Origin: Suillus spraguei
Lineage: Eukaryota > Basidiomycota > Agaricomycetes > Boletales > Suillaceae
DNA length: 64,000 nucleotides
Assembly (NCBI GenBank): GCA_016800925.1
Contig: JABCPU010000179.1
Location: forward strand, 62,001-126,000
Direction: 5' to 3'
Shown here: positions 1 through 62,491 of the stretch, piece after piece
Numbering within the stretch: the stretch's first letter is position 1
How the letters are laid out: every line of letters begins with the position of its first letter
The notes under the pieces: model-generated
The model's input: only the letters and a program-made list of their open reading frames with translations
The model's database searches: none
What the model was told of the DNA's origin: nothing
Made by a program: the position numbers and the translations under genes

Positions 1-25
1 ACTGGAAAGACTTGATCGACTTCAG

Positions 26-3000
26 ATGACTTCCCCTAGCAGGCGCAATCGTTGTCATGCTATCCATACCAATCAGACCAGATCCGCTGCTCCTGTACAG
101 CCAAATTTCATGCCAGCTGCGCCTGTTATGCAGCCTCCTCCTTACTTTGCACATCAACCGCTGCCAGTTGCCAATATCCTGGCTTGCCACGAAATGCAAT
201 CGAACATGTGTTGCATGCTCATCGTCCTCCTGTTGATTATAATGCACGTTTGAATGACCAGACAAATGCTGCTCACAACAACAGACGTCGTCAGCGTAAT
301 GTTCGTCGACAGCAGGACAGAGAGGAGATAAGACAGCAGGCGCAAGCAGAGCTCATGGCAGCACAGATACAGCCTCCGCATATACCTCATATTCCTAACG
401 AACCTGTTCAGCCTATTCAACCCGCACCTCCTGTGCCTCCTGTGTATGGTCCTATTCATTATGAGGGTGCAGTTGGTCCTCACAACTTTGATAATCCCCT
501 CCAATACTTTGCACATCCTGTACAACCTGTACCTGCACCACCTGAACCTGATAATCATGACCAGTTCAATGTCCAGTTTCGGCAGCAGCTTGAGGCAGAG
601 CGCATTAGAAATGACTTGCTTGAAAGACAAGCACAGAATGAATTTCTTCACCAGCAGCAGCAGATTCAGCATCAGTTGCAGCAGCAAGAAGCTGAGCGTG
701 TCCGTAGACAGGCCCAGGATGATCTGGCAGCCTTTCACTTGATGCAGCAGCAAGCTGCGCAGGGAAACGGAAACCATGCTTTGCACCAGCAGCAAATAGC
801 TGAGATAATTGCTAGACATGCTGAGAATGCTCGCCGTGAACAGCCGCAAGAAGCTGATTTGATGAATCGACAGCACGAGGCCCTCAGAACTTTGATGATC
901 CTCACATACCTAATCCTATGCCACCCAGAAATAATGTACCAGCACAGGAGGCATTTCGAAGACAGCAGATCCAATGGCAATTGCGCCAGCAAGAAGCCAG
1001 GAGGATCAATAGAGAGGCTGAGGAGGCTCTTCATCGACAGCAGCAGCAAGTTCGGCAACAGCAGATGCAGCAGCAGATGCAACAGCAATGCAGCAGCAAA
1101 TGCAGCAGCAAGAAGCTGGGCAGGTCAATATACAGAGTCAGCATGCTCTGGAACAGCAGCAGCAGGAACAGGAGCAGCACGATAGGCAGGATCGGGATCG
1201 TCTACGAGCAAGCCAACAAGAAGAAGCACGTCACAACCATGAGGAGCAGAGAGTTCATGAGCGGCAGGAGCGTCTTGAGGAGGCACTACATGAATATAAC
1301 GATCCATTATCTGAACGGCAACATGCAGAAGATGAGGAGAGAAGAAGAACACAGCAAGAAGAACAACGCCAAGAGCGTGAAGCAGAGGATGACCAGCGTA
1401 TCAATCAGGTCATTCCTGTTCCTGATGGAGCCCGAGCATATACGGAACCGATAAACCATCACACTCTTGGTCCTCTTAACGTAGAGTGCCCCAAATGTCA
1501 TGCACTTCACTTTGCATGCGAAAGACTATCCAACTCCTCTTTACGAAATCCTCGCTTTGGTATGTGCTGCTTGCAGGGCCAAGTCAGCCTTCCCCCATTT
1601 CCAGCATGGCCACCTGAGCTAGAGCGGGCCTATGCGGACAGAACATTTGTGTCCAAAATTCGCCAGTACAACAGTGCTCTTGCATTTACCTCTGTTGGTG
1701 TCAATATCGAGGATCGTGCTCTTCAAGGATCTGGCCCAAATGCTTTTCGTATTCATGGTTCTCTTCACCATCTCATGGGCAGTCTTTTACCTCCAGAAGG
1801 TGTCCAGCCTTCATACGCTCAACTTTATATATACGACTCTGAAGAAGCCACCAACATACGCACCACCCGCCCTGGAAATGAAGGCCTCGATCCTCAGATT
1901 CTCAGAGATCTGCACGATATGTTGCATCGCAACCACCCATATGCCGCTGTGTATAAGCAGGCATATCAAGTCATGCGAGAGAAGCCTCCAGAGGAGCAGA
2001 CAGACCTTTCTATGCTTATTCATTTCCAGCCAGGCACAGATGGTCGAAGATATAATCTTCCCACTGCCAATGATATTGCTGGAATTCTTCCTGGAGACGG
2101 ATCCGAGGAGGTGCGTCATGCACGCGACATTATCGTATATTATCAAGGCGGTCCGCTTCGGCGCATAAGTCAACTTAGCCATGCATACGCCTGTCTTCAT
2201 TATGTCATTCTCTTTCCTAAGGGAGAGGATGGCTGGGACCTCTACATTGATATGATCGTTCCTGTGGGTGGGCGTGCACGTGCAAAAAAAGTGACTCAGC
2301 TGCTGTATTACGCCTTTCGACTTCATCCCCGCCCCCCTCGCCTGGATCACAATAACATCTTTCGTGGTGGAAGGCTGTTCCAGCAGTATGTGGTTGATGC
2401 TTGGGCATCAATCGAGCAGAGCAGACTCAACTGGATAAGAAACAATCAGAAGAAGCTCAGGGCTGACTGCTACCGAGGGCTGACAGATAATGTTTTCAAT
2501 GATGGAGTGGGCAATTTAGCTGAGACAGGTCGTTCCATAATCCTTCCCTCCTCTCATAATGGAAGCCCTCGGTATATGCAGCAGCTGCTGCAGGACTCCC
2601 TGGCCATCTGCCGTGCCTGCAAGAAGCCCGATCTTTTCCTGACGATGACTGCCAATGGAAGCTGGCCTGAGATTACTGAGAATCTCCTTCCAGGTAAAGA
2701 GACATATTTTGATGCATTATTATGACATGATCCTGACGAGTTTTCTTATGTAGGTCAGAGTGCTGTGGACCGTCCAGACTTGGTTGCTCGCGTATTTTAC
2801 CAGAAGCAGAAGGCTCTCTTGAAGAAGGTTCGCGATGGCTACTACGGCAAGGTTGCGGGATTGGTGTACACCATTGAATATCAGAAGCGTGGCCTGCCTC
2901 ACATGCACCTTCTCATCTTCCTGGATCCAGATCACAAGATTCGCACTGTGGAACAGATCGACTCCTTCATCTCCGCCCAAATCCCTGACAGAAATGTCCA

Positions 3001-5749
3001 TCCACAACTCTATGAGGCCGTACAAAAATACATGCTCCATGGCCCCTGCACTACGCAGCGTTGCTTGGAGAATGGAAAGTGCAAGAAGCGTTATCCAAAG
3101 TCTTTCACTCCCCAGACATTGATGAAGGAGGACGGCTATCCAGAGTATGCCAGGCCAGACAATGGTCGCACCATCCAAAAAAATGACGACATCTTCACCA
3201 ACAAAGATGTCGTTCCCCACCCCCCGCAACTGCTGGTAGAATTCAACTGCCACATCAATCTCGAAGTCTGTGCTTCTATCAAGTCGGTCAAATACATCCA
3301 CAAGTACATCTACAAGGGAAATGACCGTGCCACATTGGAGATGACAGGACCGGTGGATGAGGTCAAAACCTATCTTGACTCCAGATACATCAGCTCCACT
3401 GAGGCCGCATGGCACATCTTTGAGTTTGGAATGCACCTTGAATGGCCCTCTGTCTATCGCTTGCCGGTCCACCTCCCAGATGAACACATGGTGTTTTATG
3501 ATCCTGAGGATAATGCACAGGATGTTCTTGAGCGCGCAGCAACCAAGGAGACTTGCCTCACTGGATGGTTCAAGGCTAACTCCAATAATGTCTTGGTGGC
3601 TGCTGGAGCCCACGACCACCTCTACCAGGACTTCCCCTCAAGATTCGTATGGAACAAGACGGCGTGGAAATACGCCAACGCGGAATAGCGATTGGAAGGA
3701 TGTACTCTGCTGCACCCGGCTCCGGAGAGCGCTTCTACCTGAGATTGCTTTTGACTGTAGTAAAAGGTATGGTCCTGACGTCAATTTTTATGAATAAAAC
3801 TTACCATGTCTTCAAGGGGCCACCTCCTATGAGAACCTTCGGACAGTTGACGGTGTCTTATGCGACACTTTCAAGGAGGCATGTCGGCGCAGGGGTCTGC
3901 TTGAGGATGATAATGAATGGATCCAGTGCTTGCAGGACGCCTCTCATATGAGCACTGGACATGGCATGCGCAACCTCTTTGCCATCATCCTCATACACTG
4001 CAACCCTACAGACCCCAGTGATCTTTGGAACCACTTCAAGGAGAATCTCTGCGATGATCTGCGCCACCGCCTATCACGCTCCCATTCAGCATCCCCGACC
4101 CTACAGATGAAGAGGTTCATGACTATGGTCTCTATCTCATCGATGGCATGCTCCGCAAAAATGGAAAGTCTTTGCAAGCGATTCCTCAGATGCCTGTACC
4201 TCAAATGGCAGCAAGATGGGGGGCCATGCAGGGAAATCAGCTCATTGCCGAGCAGCTCCAATATAACCAGGAGGAGCTCCAGCAGATGGTGAACCAAGGA
4301 GTGCTTTCTCTTAATCAGGAGCAGAGGACAGTCTTTGATGCAGTGGTCGATGATGCCATGCAACGTAATGAACAAAGACCTGGACATTCATACTTTGTCC
4401 ACAGTGCAGGTGGATGTGGAAAGACATATCTCTGCAAGCTCATTGCTTCAAAGCTCCGTGCTGAAGGCAAGATTGTCCTATGCGTGGCTTCCTCTGGAAT
4501 CGCTTCTCTCCTCCTGCCAGGCGGACGCACGGCTCATTCTCGATTCAAAATTCCAATTCCCATCAATGAGGACAGCTCCTGCAACATCAAGAAAGGAGAT
4601 GTCGTGCATGAGCTTCTCAAGGCCACCTCCCTCATCATCTGCGATGAAATTCCTATGCTACACCGTCACAATCTGGAATGCCTTGATCGCTCATTGCGCG
4701 ACCTTCTGAACGTCGATGCTGATTTTGGAGGAATGACGATGCTCTTTGGAGGAGACTTCAGACAGACCCTGCCGGTGGTGCCTCATGGATCCAGGAGCAG
4801 ATAGTGGGCGCTACATTTTGCAGATCTCGCATCTGGCCAAGGCTTCGCATCTTCCACCTAAAGACAAACATGCGGCTTGGCCAAGACCCCGCCTCTGATG
4901 AATTTGCAAAGTGGCTTCTTGAGATTGGAGCTGGGAAGGGCACACATGCAGATGGAACGGTCACCCTTCCGATTCATATGCGCTGCCCTGACAATGATAT
5001 CCGCTCTCTCATCAATGCCCTATACTCTCCTATTCTGCTCCCTGGGCATCCTCCTGTGAATGATTCCTTCTTCCTGGAAGTACCATCCTCTCCGCAAAGA
5101 ACACTGATGTGGACGAAATCAATGCCAACATTCTTGAATCATTCCCTGGAGATAAAGCGGTCTTCACCAGCGCAGACTCAATCACTGAGAAGGACTACGA
5201 CTACATCCCACCTGAGTACCTTCATACTCTCACGCCATCAGGGTTCCCTTTGCACAAATTGGAACTCAAAGTGGGTGTTCCTCTCATGTCGTTGCGCAAC
5301 TTGGACCCCACCAATGGCCTCTATAACGGAACTAGGATGATCCTCCTGTCTTGGACCACACGCGTCCTCAGGTGTCGTATTCTTAGAGATGGAGTTGATG
5401 AAGCTCATCAAGACGATCAGAACACTGTCCTAATCCCCGCATGACGCTGGATGCCACGTCTGAAGACAACCCTATCCCTTTCAAGCGTCACCAATTCCCC
5501 GTTCGTCTTGCGTTCGCTATGACAATCAACAAGGCTCAAGGTCAAAGTGTGAAGTGGGTTGGGCTGGATTTGCGGACTCCCGTGTTCAGTCATGGACAGC
5601 TGTATGTGGCTTTGTCTTGCTGCACTCACCCAGAGAGAGTGCGTGCCATCTTTCCAGAGCATGAAGAAGGGTCAAAGACAACCAATGTGGTGTATACAGA
5701 AGTGCTGAGAGGACTTAGAGATAGAGATGATATGGAGGCTGAGGATTGA
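26..5749 (+). pseudogene. Helitron Rep/helicase polyprotein, multiply frameshifted
   Basis: In order: a Gln/Glu/Arg-rich coiled region with CAG tracts (about 270-1400); a Cys/His cluster starting VECPKCHALHFACE near 1490; a Helitron-like N-terminal domain to 2693; an intron 2694-2753 that restores LLPG|QSAVDRP; the HUH motif PHMH at about 2900-2908; the two-tyrosine motif KYIHKYIYKG at about 3290-3320; Walker A SAGGCGKT near 4405-4430; Walker B LIICDEIPML; the FGGDFRQTLPVV motif; and a C-terminal [10 protein letters not shown] motif ending at 5749. A second intron runs from about 3768 to 3816. Frame changes occur near 190, 893, 1085, 3660, 4085, 4795, 5088 and 5440, so no single uninterrupted protein is encoded as written. 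The catalytic motifs are intact, which suggests recent decay or partly sequencing error. Confidence 0.85.
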
Positions 5750-5928
5750 TTGATGTATATTGATGTACTTTTATATAGAGGACCGAATGTATAGTGCACT
5801 TTTAGATGGTGCAGTAGATTTTAGTTTTAGTTTTCTTGAAATGCTGCTCAAAATGTACATGTCTGTTTTAAAATCCACTATGATTGCGAATAAGTTAAGG
5901 TGCACGAAGTAGTGATTATTAGGATGAA

Positions 5929-6153
5929 GCCAAGGCCAGAAAGCCAAAAAGAGTGCGAAGCACTCTTTTTGGCTTTCTGTGCCTTGGGCAAAAGAGAATT
6001 ATTGGGATGAAGCCAAGGCCAGGAAGGCAAAAAGAGTGCGAAGCACTCTTTTGCCTTCCTGTGCCTTGGGCAAACAGAATTATTAGGATGAAGCCTTGGC
6101 CAGGGAGCAAAAGGAGTGCGAAGCACTCCTTTTGCTTCCTGTGCCGAAGGCAC
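5929..6153. repeat. Three tandem long hairpins with C(GAA)G loops
   Basis: Hairpins lie at 5929-5989, 6012-6071 and 6093-6151, with periods of 83 and 81 bp. Each has an inner stem of about 18-19 bp closed by GTGC-GAA-GCAC and an outer stem. The arms differ between units but stay complementary. For example AGAAAGCC/GGCTTTCT in unit 1 becomes AGGAAGGC/GCCTTCCT in unit 2, and the outer GCCAAGGC/GCCTTGGGC becomes GCCTTGGC/GCCGAAGGC in unit 3. Spacers share an AATTATTRGGATGAA core. A fourth small hairpin GTGCC-GAA-GGCAC (6141-6153) overlaps the outer 3' arm of unit 3. The set lies 180 bp after the Helitron stop codon. Confidence 0.9.
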
Positions 6154-6298
6154 AACGGGTGGTGGACTCGTAAGTAAGGAATAGGTAAACTCATGATTTC
6201 CTGATGTGATAGAACATCTTGCCACGTGGTTAGTATGTGCCACAAATTTGGAATACTTACCTTTCCATGGACCTTTGATAAGCTAAACTTCATCTACA

Positions 6299-6305
6299 TA
6301 TAAAA
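6299..6305 (+). promoter_or_regulatory. TATA-like box of BTB1
   Basis: TATAAAA lies 90 bp upstream of the BTB1 start codon, a plausible core-promoter position. This is inference from position and sequence only. Confidence 0.35.
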
Positions 6306-6394
6306 TCATATCCATCGTCAAGAAAGGTATTTCGAATCTGTCCTTTTTTCACGCCTTTTCTGTATTCAAAAGTCTGCAGTGTCTGCTGTCGGTC

Positions 6395-7397
6395 ATGGAA
6401 AACACTGAGAAAATCGCTATCACTCAAGCTCGAGCACCATTCGATGATCATAATTGTGACATCATCCTCCGTTCAGCTGATGGTGTCGATTTCCATGTCT
6501 TCAAGCTCATTCTTTCCCTTATGTCACCCGTATTCAAAGACATGTTCGCGCTACCGCAGAGCGAATCGCAGTCAGACGTATCGTCTGTACCGGTCATTAC
6601 TGTGACTGAGAGTAGCACGATACTCGAATCCCTTCTTCTACTTTGCTATCCTGCCACCACCCCAACCTTTGGCAGCTTGGGTGACGCAAAGGTTGTGATG
6701 AAAGCAGCTAGTAAGTATGACATGCAAGCGGCCCTCAGCCGTGCAGGGGACCTCGTGATGGCACAATTTCCATCATATAACAGTAACTTTCTCGAGTTAT
6801 ACGCTCTCTCTTGTCAATTCGGATGGCTGCATCATGCGCAGACAGCCGCCACACAGGCCCTTGAGATCTGGAATCTCGGACGCCCTAGCCAGATGTTTAA
6901 TGGTATGCGGGACGTCACCGCTATGGATTACCACAGGCTCCTCGAATACCATTATGAATGCGGCATCGCTGCTCAAGCAGTCGGGAACTCTCTTTCCTGG
7001 CTGGATGTTCGACATAAAGATCTGGAAATGTGGGGAGAGTGCAAGTGCAAAAGATATAGCTTTGTGACACTCCAAACGCAGTTCGGAAATGTGAATGTCG
7101 GCCCGTGGTTCCATGAGTATCTGCTTTCGAGTGGGAGGGAGTTGTTGGCGAGGCCTTGCGAGTCAACCTTAACGGATTCGTCAGTTTACAATCTCGCTAT
7201 TGCCAAAGCGACTAATTGCGACACTTGCCGAGTCTGTATCGCTCAACATATGGACATATTCCGCACATTATATATCGCACAGGTCAAGAAAGTGGTCGCG
7301 ACTGTGAGTCAAGCCCATCCTGCTACTACAAGTTTCGTTCATCTCTGATTCGATACTCGCCTGAATTTTGTAGGTGAAATTGAGGACCGATGATTAA
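6395..7397 (+). CDS. BTB/POZ domain protein (BTB1)
   Basis: The exons are 6395-7303 and 7374-7397, giving 310 residues. The N-terminal BTB fold reads CDIILRSADGVDFHVFKLIL followed by LMSPVFKDMF (residues about 20-55) and the VITVTESSTILESLLLLCYP segment, as in BTB proteins where this domain mediates dimerisation. The C-terminal half is helical and carries two cysteine clusters, ECKCK (near residue 213) and CDTCRVC (near 275), that recur in the other BTB genes of this window. The last exon encodes only VKLRTDD behind a GTGAGT...TTGTAG intron. Without splicing, translation would run on to a stop at 7348. BTB proteins commonly serve as substrate adaptors or scaffolds, but no partner is evident. 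Expression could be influenced by the adjoining Helitron tail. Confidence 0.85.
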
Positions 7398-30018: not shown

Positions 30019-31250
30019 TTGTGATTCCTCGACAGTCCCTTGCTTGCCGTGGGGCAGCGGGTAATCTGGATTGAAATTGCTTGCCCACCGATAATACTAT
30101 CGACAGGATTCAACAAATCTTGACATTCGAATCAATCAAGCGATGGTTCATTGCACAGGATATGTAATTGCAGCATGCCGCACGGCACCGCCCTGCAAAG
30201 AAGTTCGAGGAGCTCGACAAGAAATAGAAGTGCAGCACATGTTAGTCATGACTGTAATCAAAGAAAGTCCCTTTAAACGATAAGCATAGGGTTCAGAAGA
30301 TATGCGTAGCACTGTGCAACATCAAGCGGTGAAGTAAACATGAGGATAACACACGGAACGCGCCCTGGTAGTAGTAGGCGGTCAAATGAACCCTTGCCCA
30401 GCTTCCTCCTCAACGATTCAATCATACTTGACTTGACACGTCAGGCTTGTGAAAAATAGGACTTCCGAGTCGCTATAGCAAACTGCTGCAAACAACCTCT
30501 GCCTTGCTCAGGTTCGAATTTTTTTGTCAAGCTTCCTGTGAGCATTTTATGCGCTTCTATTGACAAGGGTTGGCACGGGATTAGAACCATTGGCAATACT
30601 CATTTCTGCAGGATCAACCCTGTTAAGATCCCGGAAGGCCGCTGTCGGCGCGTTACGAGTACTGATTTATGATCTTCCCTATGTCTAAGGGCTGACCATG
30701 TCTCCCACCACAATTAAGATGCAAGGCACATTGATGATAATATCCCCTTCCCCTATCAGGAAGATGTCAGAGATATCAAAGATTACGCCCCTCCTGCGCC
30801 GTCATTTAAACATGAGGAAGGTATCAAAATAACACCTTCTTCTCCCATGAGTGAGACACAAACAATCAGGGATGATGCCTTTTAAACATTGCGAGACCAT
30901 ACCGAATGGGTGCACCTACACGAATCATCACATGTTCGAACGACGGCTCGCTCCGACGGTAAAATTTAGAGAGTAATTTACAGATTGGAGACAGCTGGCG
31001 AGATCGGGAAGATGGAGTGGGGGTTATCATTGTAGCCCAGACATTGTCTCTCAGAACTGACATTGTTGCAAGCAGTGGACAGTTGGTGGTGGAACGCCGA
31101 GATTGGGAATATTATTTCAAGATGGAAAAGCCATGCGGCGAATGCGTTGTCCTAGAGTCCGATTGGTCACCAAGCGAGTTGTGAGTGGATCAAATGATGG
31201 TCCCGCAAGGTTTGGTCCAATCGAGATGGCGCACATTTGCATTTGTATGC
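30019..31250 (+). repeat. Segmental duplication R1, copy 1
   Basis: From CTCGACAGTCCCTTGCTTGC onward this stretch aligns by eye with 47214-48465 in the same orientation, with scattered substitutions and small indels over about 1.2 kb. It contains no intact gene. Its right end carries decayed WD40-like coding sequence. Confidence 0.85.
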
Positions 31251-32282: not shown

Positions 32283-34255
32283 CTAATGCCGTCTCAGACC
32301 TGCCAACGACAACTCTTCAACGGCTTACAGGCTAGCTTACCACGAGGTCTTCGCTCGCATTTCAGGAGAAATTTGCTTGGATGATGCAATTTTCTACCGA
32401 AGAACCTTCGAAATTCTTGTTATACATTATACATCTCCTACGGAATGATTTTTCATGTACATGACAGTTGCAAGGCGGTACTTTTAGTGTTGGTATGACT
32501 TCTTTTTCTCACCCCATCATTTCATTGATACATCTCCAAAGTTATATTGCATTCATTTTTTGCTCGCTGGGAATGATACATGGCTCATACTTTTCCGATG
32601 CCTTCTGTCAGAACAAAGCCGCTAGACCCGCATTACTAGCGCACTGTCTCTCTGCCCAGAGAGCACTTACCTTCGCAGCATTGCGGCAGGGGGAAATGGT
32701 ATTGATTATGTGACCGGCGGATGCAACACAATTCCGAAAGACGCATCCGGTGAAGACATGTGCCTTTGACGAATCGTCCTCAAGCTCTTGGGTCGTCTGG
32801 GCCATCAACACTACCCTCAACAAACAGTTTAAGTATGCTTTGACCAACACGGCAGCATCGATGATCTCGACACAAGCATACAACTTGGTCGCAAACCATG
32901 TCTCTGTGCCTCGAGGGACATACTGACCATGATAGCTAGTTGAGCAACTTGGCCTTTTCACTTGAACACCACAAGGCAAAGCTAATGACCTCGATGAGGT
33001 TGCTGTTATGTGGGCCACGCGCAGGGTGCTGGGTGAGCATGATGTGGCGTTCGATTTGGAAAGCCTGTCGCGTATTCGCCATACGTAGTATTATTTCATA
33101 CCGACTGCAGTGATATACTCGCCCATCCTTGAAATACGTTTCCTATTTTCCTTCCCACCAGAGCATCTGAGCGAGCTGATGTGGTGTCAGAGTACTCCTG
33201 GGTGTTTGGAAAGACTAGAAATGCTCCAAGCACCTTGCAAGTGAAATTAAACATCGCGATTGTCATGAAATTCACAATGTGGCCCTTGTCAGTAGCCTAC
33301 TTTATTCGACATTGCATCTATAAAGTATCTTCACTCTTTAAATAACGAGAAGATAACCATGACCCTCAATTATGACGCTCCTTCATGCGCTCCTGCACGT
33401 ATCATGCTAATCGTTCTGCGGTGGCGAAAATAAGAACATCAGTAACTCGGACTCGAAAGACAATGAGAAAAAACGGGCTCACCCAGGCAATGTGGTGTTT
33501 TTAATGTAAGTCAAAATCTCATGTGCAGTTGGGGGCGTATTTGTCATTGCCAACATCACCAAAAAAACAGCAACTTGTGCATGCGCATGGAGTCCACGAG
33601 GACATGTAACCATCACTTCCACACTTATACACGAAATCGTTACCGTTGTTGTAAGTCTCGCCCGACCAGCACCCCGCTTTATAGGTGAATGGTCATAAGC
33701 ATGGTCTAAGGTTTGCACTGCAAAAGTGCTCACATGATCCCACCGGGGAACAGGGTAGTTTCGGCGGGCCGCTGTCAGCGAGAACTACGCCGGCCATCGC
33801 CGTGGCACTGATGATTACAGTGGCGAGTGAAGTGAGTATCATGGCTGAAACTTGAAACTTGATGGTGTTGTCTGAGTCAAGTACGTTGGCTTTTATGCAT
33901 GATTAGTATAGGATGCGGCCAAACGATTTGCATAAGCCAGCTCACATGCCGTAACATGTTTTCTTAAAGGCCTCAAATAATGTGCTGGACGCACTCGTGG
34001 CACGAGTCCAATTTTGATAGGATGATGATTGAATTTATCTGATTCGGGGAAGCGGCAGACGAACTCAGCGATAATGCACAGAGCGATTCTCGGTGCCCGA
34101 GCCCCGCATGGCTTTGCCGCCAACTAGAGAAAACACTAGTAACCAAGCCAGTGGTTGTGGTGTGAGTCGTGGCATGAGCATTTTGGAATAGTTAGATGAA
34201 ATTGTCATCTGAGCATTTTCTGCGGAATAGTTGGATGAAATCGTCATCGATATTG
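32283..34255 (+). repeat. Segmental duplication R2, copy 1
   Basis: From CTAATGCCGTCTCAGACC this stretch parallels 43072-45115 in the same orientation at high identity. Differences include a block of about 150 bp present only in copy 2 (43460-43612) and about 85-100 bp near 34125-34215 present only in copy 1, partly a tandem duplication of GAGCATTTT...GTCATC. Open frames of 80-150 codons on the minus strand are shared between copies but match no family I know. Confidence 0.88.
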
Positions 34256-39864: not shown

Positions 39865-40339
39865 TGTTACAATCGTACGTACCCCTATTCATTTTCTTAC
39901 CTCATTTACCGTGTATATTACATAACATGACTCTGACTCATATGCTCAACGCATCTGTACTATAGTTGCCTTCCTCTTTTGGATACGCACTTACGTTCTC
40001 ACACTTCTCTTAGTCTGTGCGCACATATTGGCCTATTTAAGCACAGTGTACTTGTAGTAGATTCGCTACTTTAATCTTACTGGGTTTTACCTGGAATCTC
40101 CTTCGCTTAGGTCTCCAACCTAAGTCGTCTTGAATCGTCTCTAAGTCTAAGCACTCCTTAGCCTTAGTCTCTATTCTCGCGGATACCTCTTGGACTTATC
40201 CTTGAGGCTGAACCCTTGATCGTACTCGGAACGCGTTCCTTGTGCTTTCACCTTGTCCTCTTCTGGACATTGTAAGAACTCCCAGCAGACCGTCTGTGTC
40301 TTTTCACTGTCGCTGGTGACGCCACCCCAGTTCGTAACA
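39865..40339 (+). mobile_element. Solo LTR-A, inserted antisense between gag and protease
   Basis: It starts TGTTAC and ends GTAACA, is 475 bp long, and is flanked on both sides by the 5-bp duplication CTCCA (39860-39864 and 40340-40344). It contains CTATTTAAGC as a TATA-like box. It is the inverted relative of LTR-B (41307-42536). Confidence 0.9.
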
Positions 40340-40346
40340 CTCCAAT

Positions 40347-41177
40347 TTAAAAATCCTCTATAATCCGCCTCACAGTTTCTTCTTCTTCGTTTTCGACTTC
40401 GGTTTGACGGAGCAGAGTCTTCTTCTTCCTTTCAGGACAGTTATGAATGTGATGTCCGGTCTTCTTGCATCTGAAGCATTGTCCTTTCTTCATACACTCG
40501 GATCTTTCCATATCGGAGATTCGATCTACTACCATTGCATTCGAATCTTGACTTGGCGTGTAACGCATGTTTCCATAGTTCTTCTTCTTCTGCGGAGCAT
40601 GGCGTGCTTGTAACGCCAGAAGGCGTTGGTGGGAGTTGTCGATGGAAACGCATTGCAATATGACGTTGCGAAATATCTCTGAGACATCACCTGGCATGAA
40701 GAGCTTGGTTAGGATACCTAGGTTGAGGCCATCTTGAAAGAACTGAATCTTTGTTGCATCGTCAGTGATGTGGGCCTTGGCTGCAAGTGCCTCGAAATCA
40801 GCAATATAGGTATGGAGATCGCCGCTTCCTTGTTTGAGGTCCCTGAGCTTTGTTAATGCGGTCCCTCTGGTATCCACTGGTTTGAAAGCTTCATTGAAAC
40901 TTTTCATGAAATCCTTCAACGTCCCGTAACCGACTTTTTGTCCAGAAGTATCGGTTGACTGAGCATGAGCAAGGAATTGTTCTTTCCAAGATTTGGCGTT
41001 TTTCTCGGTCATGAAGGATGTAATGAAAATGATTTTTTGTTTATCAGTGGTGTAAAGCTTTTCATTGATATCAAAGCATAGGTTGCATGATTGGATGAAT
41101 TCCAGAGAGTTGTCACAATCTCCGTCAAAACCAGTTGGGAGACCGATTTTATATTCGAATTCTTTGGTGGTAGCCAT
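40347..41177 (-). CDS. Gypsy-type Gag protein with CCHC zinc knuckle
   Basis: An intact 276-residue frame starts MATTKEFEYKIGLPTGFDGD. The middle carries the retrotransposon gag fold (NAKSWKEQFLAHAQ, LKDFMKSFNEAFKPVDTRGT, DLHTYIADFEALAAKA). The C-terminus has the zinc knuckle CFRCKKTGHHIHNC with the C-x2-C-x4-H-x4-C spacing. Gag packages the element RNA into particles. It lies 130 bp downstream of LTR-B in the same orientation, fitting a 5' LTR-leader-gag order. The pol region is truncated, so the element is non-autonomous. Confidence 0.9.
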   Translation of the reverse strand: MATTKEFEYKIGLPTGFDGDCDNSLEFIQSCNLCFDINEKLYTTDKQKIIFITSFMTEKNAKSWKEQFLAHAQSTDTSGQKVGYGTLKDFMKSFNEAFKPVDTRGTALTKLRDLKQGSGDLHTYIADFEALAAKAHITDDATKIQFFQDGLNLGILTKLFMPGDVSEIFRNVILQCVSIDNSHQRLLALQARHAPQKKKNYGNMRYTPSQDSNAMVVDRISDMERSECMKKGQCFRCKKTGHHIHNCPERKKKTLLRQTEVENEEEETVRRIIEDF

Positions 41178-41329
41178 GATGATGATTCGTCTGGTGAGTT
41201 ATACTTTCTCGGTGCCTACACGCGTGGTCTTGCTGTCCGTTAGGGCTTTTATCAAGTTTTCGGGGTCGAAGACTAGATAGTCGACGATCAGGGGACTTTA
41301 ATCTTTTGTTACGAACTGGGGTGGCATCA

Positions 41330-41804
41330 TGTCACAACCCACAAATGAATTAACACAAGGGCAGAGACTAGGACTCAAACTAAGGTTATCACAAAGAGAG
41401 AGAGGAGCAAGGACATCTTGGATTGCTACAGTTGTAGATACAAGAGGTTTGAACTAAAGAACTACTACAGCGAAACTAGCTAACTATATACACATATTGA
41501 AACTGAGATATAAACTGAGTTTGAAACTACTAGCCAATCATAAAATAGAAACGAGAATTGTACGATGTGATAGTTGTGACATTGTTATGACATCATATTC
41601 TAGAAGATTCTAAGATCACGTGATACTATCTTATCTTATCTTATCCGATAGCATCATAAAAGATCTCTTCCTCTTCATCAGGAAGTTCGGTTATAGAAGC
41701 AGATATGGGAATTTCGATAGGATTTGGGTTTGTCTTAGCACTGGGTTTAGATGCTTTAGGGAAATTGAGAAAAGAGTAATGATTTGTATTTGGAATTCGT
41801 GACA
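41330..41804 (-). mobile_element. Solo LTR-C nested in LTR-B
   Basis: It runs TGTCAC...GTGACA, 475 bp, flanked by the 5-bp duplication CATCA (41325-41329 and 41805-41809). The uninterrupted site can be read in LTR-A (GGTGGC-GTCA-CCAGC). Its sequence is unrelated to LTR-A/B, so it is another family. On the minus strand an open frame runs from the first bases to a TAA and ends ITELPDEEEEIFYDAIG. Confidence 0.88.
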
Positions 41805-41983
41805 CATCACCAGCGACAGTGATAAGACACAGACAGTCTACTGGGAAGTTCGACTATGTTCAAAAGAGAACGGAGACTACTACTTAGAGAAGGTTCCAAG
41901 TAGGATCAAGGGCTCAGTCAAAGAGTCACGACTCTAAGACAATTGGTAGAATAGAGACTAAGGCTAAGGAGTGCTTAGACTTA

Positions 41984-42256
41984 CATCAGGAAATTCACAC
42001 ATTCCTTGACGTGCCCTTATGCGGACTTATTTACACTTAACTGCCTTGGTGAAATTGAATCTACTTGTCCAAAATTTCAATGTGAATGAATTCAGAAAAA
42101 AAAAGTTGAGATATATTAATATACATGTTTTATTGTATTTCGCACTCAAAAAATATAAGATATGCCAGGTGAATGATGTGAGAGAGAGCAAACAAGTTTT
42201 GAGATAAGTGAGTTAAGCTGATTAAGCATGTTAAGGAATGTGTGAATTTCCTGATG
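41984..42256. mobile_element. MITE of Tc1/mariner type nested in LTR-B
   Basis: The element is 273 bp with perfect 24-bp terminal inverted repeats beginning CATCAGGAAATTCACACA. It is flanked by TA on both sides (41982-41983 and 42257-42258). The empty site CTTAGAGAC is preserved in LTR-A, proving TA duplication. It has no coding capacity. Confidence 0.92.
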
Positions 42257-42536
42257 TAGAGACAATTCAGACGACTTAGGTTGGAGGCCTAAGTGAAGGA
42301 TATTCCAGGTAAAACCCAGTAAGATTAAAGTAAAGTATACAAGCATAATACAATGTGCTTAAATAAGCCAATATGTGTGCACAGACCAAGAGAGACGTGA
42401 GAATGTAAGTGCGTATCCAAAGAAGGAAGGCAACTATAGTACAGATGCATTGAGCATATGAGTCAGAGTCACGTTATGTAATATACAAGTAAAGGAGACA
42501 AAGAGAAAATGAATAGGGGCACGTACAACTGTAACA

Positions 42537-42968: not shown

Positions 42969-43071
42969 GGGGTTATCACAGTCGACCAACGTTTTTCAGC
43001 GTTTTTCAGACCTCAAAACTTTTCTGAACAACGGGCGAAAAACGCCTTGCCAACGCAACTGTGAACTCCCC
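42969..43071. mobile_element. Small foldback/MITE-like element
   Basis: About 103 bp bounded by GGGGTTATCACAGT and ACTGTGAACTCCCC, imperfect inverted repeats, with internal GTTTTTCAGCGTTTTTC versus GAAAAACGCC complementarity. It abuts the left edge of repeat R2 copy 2. No clear target duplication was seen. Confidence 0.45.
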
Positions 43072-45115
43072 TAATGCCGTCTCAGACCTACCAACGACAA
43101 GTCTTCAACGGCTTAAAGGCTAGCTTACCACGAGGTCTTCGCTCGCATTTCAGGGGAAATTTTGGAGGTTCTCCTCAGGAAATTTGCTTGGGTGATGCAA
43201 TTTTGTACCGAAGAACCTTCGAAATTCTTGTTAGAGCATCATACTAATATCCTACGGGATGATTTTTCATGTACAAGACAGTTGCAAGGCGGTACTTTCA
43301 GTGTTGGTATGACTTCTTTTTCTCACTCCATCATTTCATTGATACATCCCCAAAGTTATATTGCATTCATTTTTTGCTCGCTGGGAATGATATATGGCTC
43401 ATACTTTTCCGATGCCTTCTGCCAGAACAAAGCCGCTAGACCCGCATTACTAGCGCACTCATCAGTAAACCCGTGAGTTCTTGCTGGTGATTGTGTTGAT
43501 TATTTTAGGTATATATTACCTTATAAGCTAATATCACGGAAAGATTTCCTATATATTCCTTTATATTGCAATATAAGACTATATACTTTCCTCATGAGTT
43601 CTCTGATGGCCCCTGTCTCTCTGTCCAGAGAGCACTTACCTTCGCAGCATTGCGGCAGGGGGAAATGGTATTGATTATGTGACCGGCGGATGCAACACAA
43701 TTCCGAAAGACGCATCCGGTGAAGACATCTGCCTTTGACGAATCGTCCTCAAGCTCTTGGGTCCTCTGGGCCATCAACACTACCCTCAACAAGCAGTTTA
43801 AGCATGCTTTGACCAACACGGCAGCATCGATGATCTCGACACGAGCATACAACTTGGTCGCAAACCATGTCTCTGTGCCTCGAGGGACATACTGACCATG
43901 ATAGCTAGTTGAGCAACTTGGCCTTTTCACTTGAACACCACAAGGCAAAGCTAATGACCTCGATGAGGTTGCTGTTATGTGGGCCACGCGTAGGGTGCTG
44001 AACGTGAGCATGATCTGGCGTTCGATTTGGAAAGCGTTTCGCGTATTCGCCATACGTAGTATTGTTTCATACCGACTGCAGTGATATACTCGCCCATCCT
44101 TGAAATACGTTTCCTATTTTCCTTCCCACCAGAGCGTCTGAGCGAGCTGATGTCCTGGGTGTTTGGAAAGACTAGAAATGCTCCAAGCACCTTGCAAACA
44201 TTGCGATTGTCATGAAATTCACAATGTGGCCCTTGTCAGTGGCCTACTTTATTCGACATTGCATCTATAAAGTATCTTCCCTCTTCAAATAACGAGAAGA
44301 TAACCATGACCCTCAATTATAGCGCTCCTTCATGCGCTCCTGCACGTATCATGCTAATCGTTCTGCGGTGGCGAAAATAAGAACATCAGTAACTCGGACT
44401 CGAAAGACAATGAGAAAAAACGGGCTCACCCAGGCAATGTGGTGTTTTTAAAGTAAGTCAAAATCTCATGATGTGCAGTTGGGGACGTAATTGTCATTGC
44501 CAACATCAACAAAAAAGCAGCAATTTTTGCATGAGCATGGAATCCACGAGCCCATGTAACCATCACTTCCACAGAAATACACGAAATCGTTACCGTTGTT
44601 GTAAGTCTCGCCCGACCAGCACCCCGCTTTATAGGTGAATGGTCATAAGCATGCGGTCTAAGGTTTGGACTGCAAAAGTGCTCACATGATCCCACCGGGG
44701 AACAGGGTAGTTTCGGCGGGCCGCTGTCAGCGAGAACTACGCCGGCCACCGCCGTGGCACTGATGATTACAGTGGCGAGTGAAGTGAGTATCATGGCTGA
44801 AACTTGAAACTTGATGGTGTTGTCTGAGTCAAGTACGTTGGCTTTTATGCATGATTAGTATAGGATGCGGCCAAACGATTTGCATAAGCCAGCTCACATG
44901 CCGTAACATGTTTTCTTAAAGGCCTCAAATAATGTGCTGGACGCACTCGTGGCACGAGTCCAATTTTGATGGGATGATGATTAAATTTATCTGATTCGGG
45001 GATGCGGCAGACGAACTCAGCGATAATGCACAGAGCGATTCTCGGTGCCCGAGCCCCGCATGGCTTTGCCGCCAACTAGACTGCGGAATAGTTGGATGAA
45101 ATTGTCATCAATATC
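43072..45115 (+). repeat. Segmental duplication R2, copy 2
   Basis: It is homologous to 32283-34255 in direct orientation. It contains an extra block of about 150 bp (43460-43612) starting CATCAGTAAACCC and ending CTGATGGCCC, and lacks the tandem GAGCATTTT block of copy 1. The high identity suggests a recent duplication. Confidence 0.88.
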
Positions 45116-46380: not shown

Positions 46381-47213
46381 ATGAGCTGCATTAGTGATGG
46401 CATTGTATTTTTATCGCGGTGTAGGCGTTTGGAGCTACTGAGCGTGGGGCGGTATTCAGAAGGCATTTGATGGCGTGGAAGACCTTTACGCTTGGGTGTT
46501 TGAGTGCTGGCTTTGGGCTTTGGGGGACTGAGGTTTTGGGAGGGAGGGTTTTTGGGGGGTGCGGTGCGTGAGGGGTGTTGAGAAATTGTGTTGGATTGAA
46601 TCGAGTTCCTATCACGCTGGTCACGTATCTCTTTATTATGACAAGACCTCGATGCTCGGGGGAGATTAGAACGTGATAGTTCAAGGATTTGGTACCCAGG
46701 GAAGGTTAGAGTGTATCCAACGGGTTGCAACGTTGGCTGAGACACTGTGGACACATGTACTGTCACTGCGTCAATCGCAACGACTTTGACGTGTTTAAAC
46801 TCTGCATTGAGGAGGTTGGGTACCTTTACAAGCATGTAAGTCAGCTGCCTAACAAGGGAGAATAATGTCGGTCTTCTCATCATACATCCTGTTCCATGGC
46901 TAGTCACTTGCCTTGAGCTTACGGCCATGGGTGCCGGCGAACGGACACCGTGCTTCGTTTTATTGTCCGTTTAATATAAGCAAGCGTTCATGTCGGATCA
47001 TTACGTCGTCATCCCGTCGTGCCTTTCAAAATCAACGTTATGCTGGGCTCTCAGGCTTCCTTCAGGCTGGTGCTCCACTCTGTCATTCAATGAAGACTCA
47101 CAACGCGAACTTGAACGCGATGTCCGACTCACCATCACCAGCTCCGGCCTGTTCGTGCACAGTGAGCATCCAACTTCCCGGCCTCCTAGTTAGGATTGTG
47201 ATCAATTGATTGC
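46381..47213. other. Unassigned stretch between the PIG-O relic and R1 copy 2
   Basis: It includes a G-rich tract (46500-46570). Open frames on the minus strand are proline-rich and unrecognised. Confidence 0.4.
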
Positions 47214-48465
47214 TCGACAGTCCCTTGCTTGCCGTAGGGCAGCGGGTAGTCTGGATTGAAATTCCTTGCCCACCGATAATGCTATCGACAGGATTCAATA
47301 TTCGAATCAAACAGGCGATGGTTTCATTGCACAGGGTATGTAATTGCAGCATGCCGCACGGCACTGTTTTGCAAAGAAGTTCGAGGAGCTCCACAAGAAA
47401 TAGAAGTGCAGCACATGTTGGTCATGACTGTAATCAAAGGAAGTCCCTTTGAATGATAAGCATAGGGCTCAGAAGATGTGCGTAGCGCTGCGCAACATCA
47501 AGCGGTGAAGTAAACATGAGGATAACACACGGAACGCGCCTTGATAGTACATAGTAGGCGCACAAATGAACCCTTGCCCAGCTTCCTCCTCGACGATTCA
47601 ACCATACTCGACTTGACACGTCAGGCTTGTGAAAAATAGGACTTCCGAGTCGCCATAGCAAACTGCCGCAAACAACCTCTGCTCTTGTGGGTCAGGTTCG
47701 AATTTTTCTTGACAAGCTTCCTGTGAGCATTTTACGCACCTCTATTAACAAGGGTTGGCACGGGATTAGAACCATTGGCAATACCCATTTCTGCATGATC
47801 AACCCTGCTGAGATCCCGGAATGCCGCTGTCGGTGCGTTACGCGTACGGCGTACTGGTTTACGATCTTCCCTATGTCTAAGGGCTGACCATATCTTCCAC
47901 CACAATTAAGATGCAAGGTACGTTGGTGATAATGTCCCCTTCCCCTATCAGTAAGACGTCAGAGATGTCAGAGATCACACCTCTCCTGCGCCGTCATCGA
48001 AACATGAGGGAGGTATCAGAAATGACACCTTCTTCCTTAAGTGAGACACAAGACAATCAGGGATGATGCCTTCTAAACATTGCGAGACCATACCGAATGG
48101 GTAATACGAGGTGTTGTGCACCTGCACGAATCATCACATGTTCGAACGACCGCTCCTACGATGGTGAAATTTAGAGAGAGCAATTTACAGATTGGCGACA
48201 GCTGGCGAGATCAGGAAGATAGAGTAGGGGTTATCATCGTAGCCCAGACAAAGTTGTCTCCCAGAAGTAACATTGTTGCAAGCGGTGGACAGTTAGCAGT
48301 GGAACGCCGAGACCGGGAATGCTATTGCAAGATGGAAAAGCCATGCAAGGAACGCGTTGTCCGTGAGCTAGAGTCCGATTGGTCACCAAGTGAATTGTGA
48401 GATGACGGTCCCGCAAGGTTTGGTCCAATCAAGATGGCGCACGTTTGCATTTGTATGCGTTGTGA
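47214..48465 (+). repeat. Segmental duplication R1, copy 2
   Basis: It parallels 30019-31250 in direct orientation. A longer frame survives here (48080-48400) with NIVASGGQLAVERRDRE and DWSPSEL, decayed WD40 blades. The alignment stops near 48465, before the best WD40 blades of copy 1. Confidence 0.85.
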
Positions 48466-51540: not shown

Positions 51541-54080
51541 ACATAGGACGCAAGCTTCGAATTGGTTGCCGTGACAATGCTCTGGGCGGTCGGCCTGTGA
51601 TTGACACCGAGGGTGGTCCTACGACGGTCAGGAGTTTCTTGCCGACCCTTTTTCTGTGTTAAACTGAGTGGCGGTGCGGTGCTAAGAGCAAAGATCCGCA
51701 CAATTGCGTTCGGGAAATCTGGATCCCTCTCTATGCACTGTGCCCGACCATCGTGCAACCTTCTGTCTGATGCCTTGGAGACTATCATGACTCGACAGAC
51801 GTGGACGATACCTTGGTCACCGTGAATGAGTTGTTGTTCATGTCTCTGTTCTATGCTATTTTCTCATACTTACACATATTGACATAGCATCCACGTCTCC
51901 AATCTCGCACCTTTGGCAAGTGAAGTCGTCAGGGAGGAACTGTATATCCACGGTTGTCTCAAACCACCTAAGCAGGACAATCGTTTTCTCCGCAAGCCAT
52001 AGTGAATTGATGTTCTAGGGCTTCTCCAGGTACTCCATCACTGCTGGCCCTTGACGCCTGTCTCCACAGGTCATTGGTTGGCGTGGGGGAGTAAAAATAG
52101 TCAAAAAAATGTTCAACTTGGTACGCCCTTTAATGAGTCGCACGATCTGTGCTCACTCCATAAGCATAGTCTCCTGATAGTGAGAAGAATCTTCGTATAT
52201 TCACTCCGACGGGACCATCTCCTAGTGATCAGTTGATCTACTGGTCTTGTAAGTCGCCACAGACGACCCTCGACTCGTCATCATCTCCTTTGATCTGAGA
52301 AAGCCCTATGTCAACTACCCAGTTTTGCGATTTCTGTAAATACTCGGACATCACGTTGCATACTACACAACCCTCGTCACTGGAGCTCGTGGACCTCAGT
52401 GAAGAGAACATTCCGCATACGATGGACCCCTTTTCTGCGGTTCCTAGCGCTCCGAGTTGCATCGATGAAGGCAGGTCAGTAGTCACAGTTCGTAGCTTCC
52501 TCCTGGTTGCATTAGTGGACTACCTAGGGTGAGGTAAAGACATCAGTTGTTCCCAAAGTCGAGTCAAAAAGCTGACTGTTAATGATTAAATGGTGATCAA
52601 CATTGATAAGACCGCCCGGTGGATAGTAAGCATGTGGAGGTATTCTCGCCATGGGTAAGATAGATGAAAGACGGGTGAGGGTAGTCGTGGAAGTACGTTT
52701 TCATGTTGACGGGTATGGTACTGGTAGAAATGTAAGTTTCCTGAGGAGAAAGTACTGATGAAGTGAGTAGCATAACAGTTGCCTAAGCTGATTGTCCTCG
52801 GACAGAGACTGAGTAGAGTTTTGCATCAGACTCAAATTATCTTAAAAAAAATACAGCTGGTACAGAGTCTGGTTGCAAGCTACAGAGAAGGTGACAGAAA
52901 GTCGCCATGAATCAATGATAAGTTGAGAGGGTAGTCACGACTCACAGAATCGCCCTAGATTGACAGTAATATGATAACCAGATCTGCCGTCATGGACGAA
53001 GACCAACTGATCCATAGCACCATGGTGAATATGATCCTAAACGTGACATAGCGGAAAGTAAGTTTCTGTTCCTACTTCAGTATCGCTATGTTAGAATTTT
53101 TTCCCACACCACCTTGGCAATTGACTCAATATTTACTCGTCCTACCTTCTTTTCTGTGCCACACATTAGACATTCAGTAACCCTTGGTGCTACCCCCGCT
53201 TTTTTCTTGTACCCATCTCAAATTGAATGGCACTGGAATTTTCGGGTAGAAGTCGCGTGTGGAACTGGCATTTGGTCACGGCATCTATGAGGCATGCGTC
53301 GGAAAATACTCGTTCACAAGATCCCTGAATGAACCGGTAATTAAATACAAGGCAGTGCTGCTGAGTACAGGGAAACGGGAGATATTATTCTTGAACACTG
53401 TCCAGGTCAGATACTTTCTCGAGGCAAACTTGTCTGCTGTGCCCGAACCGGACTTGAACATTGGCAACTTTAAGACAGGGAATGAGGTTTCTAGGCGATT
53501 CCTTTCATTAGGGTCGAGCACAGATACTTGAGCTGCATAGTGATGAATTCCAGCATGGCTTCGTGCATAAGACGTAAGTATCTTAGACGCGGGTCACACG
53601 GTATACAATCTCGCTGTCAGTTCAGTTACGTTGGCAAAGGGAAGCAGCGTGAGCACATTATTAACCAATGCACTTGTCCCACAGACAAAGAATTATGAAG
53701 GTCAGAGCCTGCAGGCCTTGCGATTTAACCGAGAACTATCAATGTACGACCCCCTTGAAGCTGCTCAGGAATACATGAAGAAACAACCAATGGAGGCTAA
53801 GTTTGAAGTTTGCAAGTCAGTTCATAGATATCCAAGGCAGTGTAACGCCAAGGAAGCTTCACTGGCTACACAATCTACTGCAATCAAGGTAGTGAGAGGA
53901 CTCAGAGGGGGGGTTTACGCAGAGCACAATATAATTAGTGTTTCAAACGTGTCCAAAGGCATGACTCGCCATGGAGTAAGTATCAATGTTGCATCAACAA
54001 TTTGCACAGGGGCTAAGACCAGTTAAGATGGACCTCTAAGAAAACTATCCATGAATGAATGTCAAGGTGTTCCGATAAAA
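51541..54080. other. Long stretch without a recognised gene
   Basis: Plus-strand frames at 53259-53531 and 53631-54026 (MAKGSSVSTLLTNALVPQTK) are unlike any family I know and lack splice support. No transposon ends were identified. Confidence 0.45.
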
Positions 54081-54087
54081 AAAATGC

Positions 54088-54172
54088 TGTCATCAGCAGG
54101 TTTTGAACCTACACAGGAAAGAGAAACAGATTTTGATTCTGTTGTGGTAATCATCAGGCTAAGGCTGGTGAC
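54088..54172 (-). tRNA. tRNA-like unit A, anticodon CAA, probable pseudogene
   Basis: This is the most complete unit: 5' GTCACCA pairs with 3' TGATGAC at six of seven positions. The anticodon loop is ATCAAAA. The B box is altered to GGTTCAAAACC. A T-run follows. Confidence 0.5.
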
Positions 54173-54228
54173 AATGAACTGCCAAAGAAACCATCACGGG
54201 TGAATATCAAGGTGTGTTCCGATAGAAA

Positions 54229-54312
54229 ATGTCGACAGGTTTCGAACCTGCACAGTCCAAGAGAAACAGATTTGGATTCTGTCGTGGCAACCACCAGGCT
54301 AAGACCAGCTAC
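54229..54312 (-). tRNA. tRNA-like unit B, anticodon CCA, probable pseudogene
   Basis: The anticodon loop is ATCCAAA on an intact ACAGA/TCTGT stem. The B box GGTTCGAAACC is intact. The acceptor is not paired and the following T-run is short. Confidence 0.42.
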
Positions 54313-54375
54313 GGTGAACTTTCAAAGAAACCGTCCACCAGTGAACATCAAAGTGTGCTCTGATAGAAAAAACCT

Positions 54376-54461
54376 CGTCATCGGCAGGTTTTGAACCCGC
54401 ACAGTCCAAGATAAACAGATTTTGATTCTGTGGTGGCAACTGCCTAGCTAAGACCAGTTAC
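54376..54461 (-). tRNA. tRNA-like unit C, anticodon CAA, probable pseudogene
   Basis: The anticodon loop is ATCAAAA, the T arm GCGGGTTCAAAACCTGC, and a TTTTTT terminator follows. The 5' acceptor half pairs poorly. Confidence 0.42.
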
Positions 54462-54524
54462 GATGAACTTCTAAAGAAGCCATCCATGAGTGAATGTCAA
54501 GGTGTGTTTCGATAGAAAAAACCT

Positions 54525-54610
54525 TGTCGTCGGCAGGTTTCAAACCTGCACAGTCCAAGAGAAACAGATTTTGATTCTGTTGTGGCAATCACCTGACTAA
54601 GACCAGTTGC
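54525..54610 (-). tRNA. tRNA-like unit D, anticodon CAA, probable pseudogene
   Basis: The anticodon loop is ATCAAAA, the T arm GCAGGTTTGAAACCTGC, and a TTTTTT terminator follows. The 5' acceptor half pairs poorly. Confidence 0.42.
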
Positions 54611-54668
54611 GGTGAACTTCTAAAGAAACCGTCCATGAATGTCAAAGTGCGTTCTGATAGAAAAAAAC

Positions 54669-54756
54669 TGTAGTTCAGCAGGTTTCGAACCTGCGTAGTC
54701 CAAGAGAAACAGATTTCGATTCTGTTGTGGTAACCACACTAGCGAGGCTAAAGTCT
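54669..54756 (-). tRNA. tRNA-like unit E, anticodon CGA, probable pseudogene
   Basis: The anticodon loop is ATCGAAA, the B box GGTTCGAAACC is intact, and a TTTTTTT terminator follows. The D region TAGCCT-CGC-TAGTG contains a small insertion, and the acceptor ends do not pair. Confidence 0.42.
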
Positions 54757-61482: not shown

Positions 61483-62491
61483 TCAAAAGTCCATCTCTAG
61501 CTCGATCTATTGGGAGCTCTCAGGATTTGTCTGTGTTGTATAACAAGGTACATACCGGAGCGACAGCCTCCTCTACTTTTAGAGCAAGCAAGTTGCTAAA
61601 CTCTGTCATAGCTTCTTTTACCCGGCCGGAGCAAGTAGCACAAGTCGCACTTCTGACTTTTTGGATTGTCCTGTCCGCTGCCGTCCTCACAGTATCGCCG
61701 GATGGACTATCCTGTAACAGCTCGCATATCTCCTGCATATATCTGGTCCACCATGCAAGTGGAGGGGTATTCCAAGGAAAAAATCTTGTATCAGTACCCT
61801 GTCCACAGCAGTATCGTGACCCGTTGAAGATGTCACTAGAAGGACGAGCAGTGAATAGCCAATTGCAGCCACCCAGACTGCCATAATGATCTGTCATCCA
61901 TTTGAGGTCCTTCATTAAGGCTTGTACGGCGGTAATGCATTTTTTGTGGTATGTTATTAGGGCAAGAAGGTCGGATGCGGTGATCAGGTTGATCTCTGCA
62001 AATAACGCAGGAATTAAGGGTTGCCGTAAGTTGTATCTGGCGGCGGTGATGGTTTCATGCTTAAGCCGTGCGTTTCTCGCAATGGCGAAGCAGCGAAGGG
62101 GTTCTGCCTCAAGAACTTTTGGATTCGCCAGAGCTTGACATACTTTTCTTTCGATCAGCTCTAGTGAATACTTCCTTGCAGCTGCGAGCACAGAGAGGAT
62201 TTCTGTGAGGTTATCAAGAGAAGGATCCTCCGCCAGCGTCGATGGATAGCAAAACCTGAGAAACGAATCTAGAGTTTTATAGTCCTCAGACACGGCGATA
62301 ACTGCTAAGCCGTCCTTCATCTCTTGATCGGAAGCCCCATCGGACGCTTGAGGGAGGCCGAACAATGTCTCGAAGAACGAAGAGGCAAGGGAGAGGAAGA
62401 GCATGAAAACTCGAAAATCTACGCCATCAGCTGATCGTAAGATAACGTCTGCTTTAGCGTGATTGAACGGGGCTGAAGCACAAGTTGCCAT
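61483..62491 (-). CDS. BTB/POZ domain protein (BTB5)
   Basis: Exon 1 is 62491-61556 and exon 2 is 61506-61483 (IELEMDF), separated by a GTATGT...CAATAG intron of 49 bp. The BTB domain reads KADVILRSADGVDFRVFMLF followed by LASSFFETLFGLPQ. A helical region contains AARKYSLELIERKVCQAL. The C-terminal clusters are GSRYCCGQ and ATCATCSGR. The closest relative in the window is BTB4 (shared RSSDG/RSADG, AARKYSLE and TLAEDP stretches), so these two look like a tandem duplication, with a third, decayed copy following at the window edge. The frame is intact. Confidence 0.87.

Follow-up and report, generated by a model that had tools for sequence, protein, structure and literature searches.

A tandem array of GAA-loop hairpins at the 3′ end of a RepHel Helitron family in Suillus spraguei

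Results

The Helitron and its coding content

The window, that is the whole 64,000-nt stretch analysed here, corresponds to positions 62,001 to 126,000 of Suillus spraguei contig JABCPU010000179.1 (assembly GCA_016800925.1, 86.2 Mb in 1256 contigs; G000:C346:62001-126000 in our numbering). It opens inside a Helitron which begins with 5′-TCTAAGAAGAAAGGG and whose first 934 bp precede the window. The element and its coding features are the following.

1..6170, plus strand: window part of an autonomous-type Helitron, by its domains (whole element G000:C346:61067-68170, 7104 bp)
1088..2725, plus strand: ORF in which the Rep domain begins (Helitron_like_N, E 1.3e-35)
about 2694-2754, plus strand: probable intron behind the first Rep ORF, read from sequence only
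2765..3688, plus strand: ORF with the remainder of the Rep domain (Helitron_like_N, E 2.1e-16; REP_ORF2-G2P, E 3.5e-07)
4148..4804, plus strand: first part of a PIF1-like helicase (PF05970, E 8.9e-60)
4804..5340, plus strand: ORF, weak PIF1 continuation (E 0.00035, below the curated cut-off)
5109..5444, plus strand: ORF with the Pif1 2B domain (PF21530, E 2.1e-16)
5441..5749, plus strand: last ORF, weak Herpes_Helicase match (E 0.00023, below cut-off)

The combination expected of a RepHel protein, PF14214 with PF05970/PF21530, was found above cut-off in successive ORFs, and the reading frames are either broken or interrupted by introns. The translation of the ORF at 2765..3688 contains RGLPHMH, which we take to be the HUH-like motif of Rep. 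Elsewhere in the window, a 219-nt inverted repeat (88%) with further arms, 2.1-2.6 kb apart, occupies 39865-42536 and is probably a TIR transposon, and a degenerate tandem repeat of about 149 nt lies at 54012-54778. Two pairs of long direct repeats, 32283-34002 with 43071-44954 (10.9 kb apart) and 30022-31157 with 47207-48367 (17.2 kb), are 84-99% identical and are probably transposon copies. Among named sequences, those most similar to the flanking BTB gene come from Suillus and next from Rhizopogon, and one listed relative, from Suillus spraguei, is 70% identical.

Structure and folding of the hairpin array

Behind the last ORF the Helitron carries three tandem long hairpins, with unit spacings of 83 and 81 nt, and a short terminal hairpin.

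5930-5987, plus strand: long hairpin A, stem of 20 + 7 bp interrupted by a single bulged base, loop GAA at 5957-5959
6013-6069, plus strand: long hairpin B, of the same design as A with one unpaired A in the window copy, GAA loop 6040-6042
6093-6151, plus strand: long hairpin C, bulged stem of 19 + 8 bp, loop GAA at 6120-6122
6141-6153, plus strand: short terminal hairpin GTGCC-GAA-GGCAC, which corresponds to the canonical Helitron 3′ hairpin and leaves 17 nt to the element end

The inner stems of the three long hairpins measure 19-20 bp and are perfect or nearly so, the outer stems measure 7-8 bp, and the stems come to 27 bp overall. The window holds exactly three copies of GTGCGAAGCAC, each of them in the array. 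When positions 5915-6175 were folded as single-stranded DNA the energy was -92.2 kcal/mol versus -36.7 (sd 3.8) in 200 shuffles (z -14.8). Sequence and folding thus confirmed what an earlier sequence-only reading had described at this locus, three tandem hairpins which all have the loop C-GAA-G. The hairpin formed by d(GCGAAGC) has been called extraordinarily stable.

The short terminal hairpin falls within the interval covered by the sequence-only reading, yet was not mentioned there. It overlaps the outer right arm of hairpin C, and since the two share bases they cannot form together; DNA energies calculated for unit C favoured the outer stem (-30.2 versus -23.8 kcal/mol). Units A and B carry a weaker counterpart of the terminal hairpin, TGCC-TTG-GGCA (-2.6 versus -3.5), and each long-hairpin unit can be read as a duplicated end structure.

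Element ends and insertion site

The 3′ boundary of the Helitron was placed by comparison with empty sites.

6167..6170, plus strand: 3′ end of the Helitron, CTCG; base 6171 (T) belongs to the host
6171..6206, plus strand: host flank, the terminal part of a high-copy element bounded by terminal inverted repeats, intact copies of which provide the empty site

All four intact host-repeat copies that were fetched have GAAA^TAAG at the position of CTCG^TAAG in the window. As the intact host repeat has ...GTTTGAAATAAGTAAGG... in these four copies and the window has ...GTGGACTCG joined to TAAGTAAGG..., the Helitron ends at 6170, inserted between A and T. An end before 5900 revealed by empty sites, the outcome named at the outset as telling against the hairpins being a Helitron tail, was therefore not found, and an element that stops short of the hairpins is ruled out. 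The host element, seen also at L069 and L072-L075, has terminal inverted repeats CATCAGGAAATC...GATTTCCTGATG and is a short TIR element with many copies sharing an identical 35-nt end.

Further empty sites were consistent with this insertion. On contig C86 the locus is present, about 99% identical on both sides, without the whole 26.5-kb insert, and for the solo element L031 the joined flanks align unbroken over 1-240 at C636 with 86% identity; a search for the empty site of the solo element L041, whose left flank is a repeat, returned none. The 5′ ends read TCTATAAAG or TCTAAGAAG, from a search pattern that itself begins with TC, and stand directly behind A at all five distinct solo ends and behind CTCG at junctions between elements. 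All 30 non-tandem 3′ flanks sampled start with T, and these flanks are unshared save for two pairs which are 99% identical and look allelic. Insertion between A and T, with no duplication of the target, is thus indicated by the empty sites, the A before 5′ ends and the T after 3′ ends. The 3′ terminus is CTCG, sometimes CTCA or CTTG, rather than CTRR. Canonical Helitron1 termini have a hairpin of 16-20 nt about 10-12 nt before the 3′ end; the terminal hairpin of the window element is 13 nt long and stands 17 nt before it.

Copies of the tail share the end from GTGCYRAAGGCRC to AAYGGGTGGTGGACTCR and diverge beyond it. The short hairpin GTGCC-GAA-GGCAC, together with AACGGGTGGTGGACTCG followed by T, probably makes up the minimal end signal. 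At L010 1337-1366 (C402:82428) the short hairpin and CTCG followed by T are present with no long hairpin in the 300 nt upstream; the upstream DNA looks unrelated to the Helitron family, and this end-like stretch may be a distinct element or a fragment.

The proposal that the hairpins stand at a Helitron tail is upheld by the Rep and PIF1 domains just upstream and by the element end at 6170 behind the hairpins. The proteins and the insertion identify a Helitron, and as judged from its sequence the array forms the right terminus of a RepHel transposon of canonical (Helitron1-like) type.

Genome-wide copies and hairpin number

A search with the hairpin region, in which 40 of 410 candidates were scored, gave 40 matches over the full query. 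The exact core GAGTGCGAAGCACTC has 573 copies in the genome and its reversed control none, and the 3′ end pattern was found 289 times, with the foot of the last long hairpin retained in 271. At each of the 30 first-listed hairpin loci (17 distinct ends) a Helitron 3′ terminus lies at most 420 nt behind the core, and the other outcome that had been named as damaging, hairpins at many loci lacking a Helitron, did not materialize. In a strict tally of contigs up to C402, 157 of 198 hairpins had a strictly matched 3′ end no more than 420 nt downstream; most of the remaining 41 could not be read, and those read had a variant 3′ end (L022, L040, L054, L058, L062) or were rearranged (L026). Hundreds of occurrences in one to four copies might suggest that the hairpin unit is a small element mobile in its own right which landed in Helitron tails, but the Helitron end that follows at all 30 loci, and behind most hairpins of the strict tally, led us to reject this as very improbable. 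At L026 1274-1702 (minus strand), two long hairpins lack a 3′ end of their own and run into the inner part of another element with its three-hairpin tail, which makes this a rearranged Helitron.

Among 52 distinct sampled tails, 29 carried three full-length units, 18 two, four only one and one tail four, a sample that favours three because 30 loci were chosen by similarity to the window triplet; some units were partly deleted. With one to four long hairpins in the sampled tails, triplication is not essential.

Elements of 882-1489 bp, too short to encode RepHel, also keep the hairpins (five examined: E3-E5, L031 and L041), and their longest stop-to-stop frames are 111-269 aa. This bears on the idea that the array acts at the RNA level, as a transcription or 3′-end signal of the transposase gene or as a source of hairpin RNA for silencing. 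The array does lie in the position expected of a 3′ UTR, about 180 nt past the last helicase ORF, and an RNA copy could form the same stems, but hairpins are kept where a transposase gene would not fit, and no Rfam family was matched at gathering score in 5500-6600 of the window; we consider an RNA-level role improbable. Short Helitrons (L062 1700-2060 and 4000-4560; L041) contain a long GGGAGAC/GGGAGAT repeat in the middle, seemingly a main cause of the length differences among short elements.

Paired changes and loop inversions

To compare the arms, the commonest form of each of the three unit types (A, B and C) was used. Five pairs were changed on both sides, so that the earlier count of at least four, with an AA/TT to TT/AA swap in the outer stem, proved sound: three lie in the inner stem, at columns 19/55 (A-T to G-C), 29/45 (A-T to G-C) and 23/51 (C-G to G-C, with both sides lost in type C), and two are the outer pairs of the swap. 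The accompanying claim that the diverged arms remain fully complementary stood for these paired changes and failed at an unpaired A in hairpin B of the window (AAAAA versus TTTT) and at column 20/54, where most type C copies have a G.T wobble. Among copies within one unit type, changes are nearly all one-sided, the exception being one B variant in which both arms are one base shorter in the A/T run, which leaves only three unit types as the basis for the two-sided changes.

Long-hairpin loops were found in both orientations. Among the 100 C-type matches listed of 279 the loop was GAA in 83, TTC in 10, AAA in four, TTT in two and CTC in one, and among the 100 A/B-type matches listed of 279 it was GAA in 82, TTC in eight, GCA in five, AAA in three and TTT in two, giving 12/100 and 10/100 inverted loops respectively. 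The terminal hairpin had only GAA or AAA in the 100 matches listed of 238 (0/100 flipped, scored by eye); Fisher p values were 0.0003 (12 vs 0/100) and 0.0015 (10 vs 0/100), which are too optimistic because the copies are related. Flipped loops were seen for three alleles (GAA/TTC, AAA/TTT and GCA/TGC), and since the rarer alleles AAA and GCA also occur as TTT and TGC, it is the palindrome centre that is being inverted. GAA to TTC loops within otherwise normally oriented units were noted at L042, L044, L051, L054 and L062:2466. We conclude from these patterns that the long palindromes fold or switch templates in vivo. Strict recognition of the loop strand is unlikely in the long hairpins, given that 10 to 12% of their listed loops are flipped, and the missing flips in the terminal loop could be explained by its shorter stem or by selection on the loop. 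Small inversions, hairpin and loop are terms used together in papers on chloroplast genomes and bird microinversions. Inversion of the hairpin tip would offer a mutational, non-selective route to paired changes, as an alternative to selection. At locus L039 a hybrid unit has a type A left arm and a type B right arm joined at the hairpin tip, as might follow from deletion or recombination at the palindrome centre.

Tail conservation and head-to-tail trains

On contig C346, elements E2 and E6, both long and with Rep domains, are 96.9% identical over 259 bp of tail and 89.0% over 4582 bp of body, the tail being the best conserved stretch between them, and the short elements E3-E5 match E6 in the tail only (E <= 1e-20). 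Tail conservation favours a function at the DNA level, and recombination or gene conversion within trains could be an added source of it.

These data have to be weighed against the possibility that the long hairpins are a passenger expansion without a role, arising by slippage and duplication of an end palindrome, with conversion between arms and tip inversion maintaining their complementarity and their place inside a mobilised unit accounting for their spread. A hairpin number which varies from one to four with some units partly deleted, loops of three alleles flipped as by palindrome exchange, and within-type changes that are nearly all one-sided would all accord with such an origin. It is nevertheless rather unlikely in our judgement, as the foot of the long hairpin is retained in nearly all 3′ ends, the E2/E6 comparison singles out the tail, and the AA/TT to TT/AA swap still pairs even though the terminal loop makes use of its right side.

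Genome-wide, 127 junctions were found at which the 3′ end of one element is joined base-exact to the 5′ end of the next, and in the strict sample of contigs up to C402, 48 of 95 ends were followed by another element. Among the 100 junctions listed, nine fall on C392, six on C399 and five on C346; these five exclude the junction before E6, where CTCG has been lost. Trains of different Helitrons were observed on these three contigs and at L062 1031-5100. Neighbours on C346 measure 7574, 7197, 1489, 1084, 1462 and 7104 bp, and as they differ, trains as concatemers of one circle were rejected for this contig. E1 and E2 are similar only over about 180 bp at each end (E <= 1e-20), and E5 and E6 have different 5′ ends. 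Trains could arise from newcomers inserting exactly behind a resident 3′ end, or by recombination between trains. More hairpins were not tied to fewer junctions (8/12 ends followed with at least three hairpins, 40/83 with fewer), a comparison that measures the matter indirectly, with strict patterns and related copies, and in which junctions need not reflect read-through.

Discussion

The precise, structured and conserved tail described here is the 3′ terminus of a RepHel family. We think it reasonably probable that the tail is the Helitron end signal, with the long hairpins as duplicated and enlarged relatives of the end which aid the Rep-helicase in stopping and cutting. During rolling-circle transposition the 5′-TC...CTCG-3′ strand would be displaced as single-stranded DNA, and the GAA-loop hairpins would fold on it and help the Rep-helicase complex to stop and cut at the correct 3′ end. 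This termination role is proposed by analogy with Helraiser, whose hairpin is a transposition terminator. The number of hairpins would be free to vary (one to four among the sampled tails), with additional copies tolerated or mildly useful and not required. Function would account for part of the arm complementarity, and hairpin-tip inversion with template switching, to which the flipped loops point, for another part. A "reinforced terminator" is plausible; hairpin number gives it no support. A more tentative extension, possible though short of likely, is that RepHel prefers its own GAA-hairpin and GTGGACTCG end followed by T as a target, which would make the tail both terminator and landing pad. 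Newcomers would then land behind residents and build mixed trains, with hairpin number tuned by tip inversion and deletion.

In Helraiser, read-through is about 11.7% with the hairpin and at least 36% once it is deleted, changing the loop does as much harm as deletion, and a stem swap keeps about 90% of activity, in the parts of the report available to us (PMC4778049). This pattern, in which the loop matters and the stem is exchangeable, fits the GAA loops kept here on pair-changed stems. What we found on Helitron termination was obtained with a single reconstructed element, from a bat, that has one hairpin, and the hundreds of Suillus copies, with variable hairpin number, loop flips and junctions, offer a natural experiment on the 3′ hairpin and on trains. 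Palindrome inversion in a nuclear genome also calls for caution in reading paired changes as selection.

Plant centromeric Helitrons, reportedly described by Xiong, Dooner and Du in 2016, are likewise tandem, whereas the Suillus trains mix different long and short elements. Tandem Helitrons have been reported in plants, bats, flies and fungi, and truncated Helitrons inserted in tandem in plant centromeres, according to the passages seen of one account (PMC5148889). In the Helitron literature searched, where most subscription papers were outside our reach, we met neither a tandem hairpin array at a tail nor Helitrons inserted into other Helitrons.

With the bat elements Helraiser/Helibat1 the Suillus family has in common the TC start, A^T insertion, a palindrome near the 3′ end and RepHel, and Helraiser circles have a head-to-tail junction of exact ends (excerpts of PMC4778049 and PMC5876387). 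The portions consulted give Helraiser one 19-bp palindrome 11 nt from CTAG, whereas in Suillus the short hairpin stands 17 nt from CTCG, usually with one to four long hairpins in addition. HELPO1 and HELPO2 of Pleurotus ostreatus share a fungal RepHel, AT insertion and a subterminal hairpin, and HELPO2 ends in CTTG, likewise not CTRR; tandem hairpins go unmentioned in the sections available of their description (PMC4289320). The Helitron2-like FoHeli1 and FoHeli2 of Fusarium oxysporum have C-G-closed GAA-loop terminal hairpins (TCAGCC GAA GGCTG) but differ, in the extracts accessible, in having hairpins at both ends, asymmetric inverted repeats and the end ATTTT, the GAA hairpins quoted being 5′ (PMC5148889). 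Set beside these systems, the Suillus tail is an unusual and enlarged form of the known Helitron right terminus, set apart by its hairpin array and differing from the usual pattern in its CTCG end and hairpin spacing.
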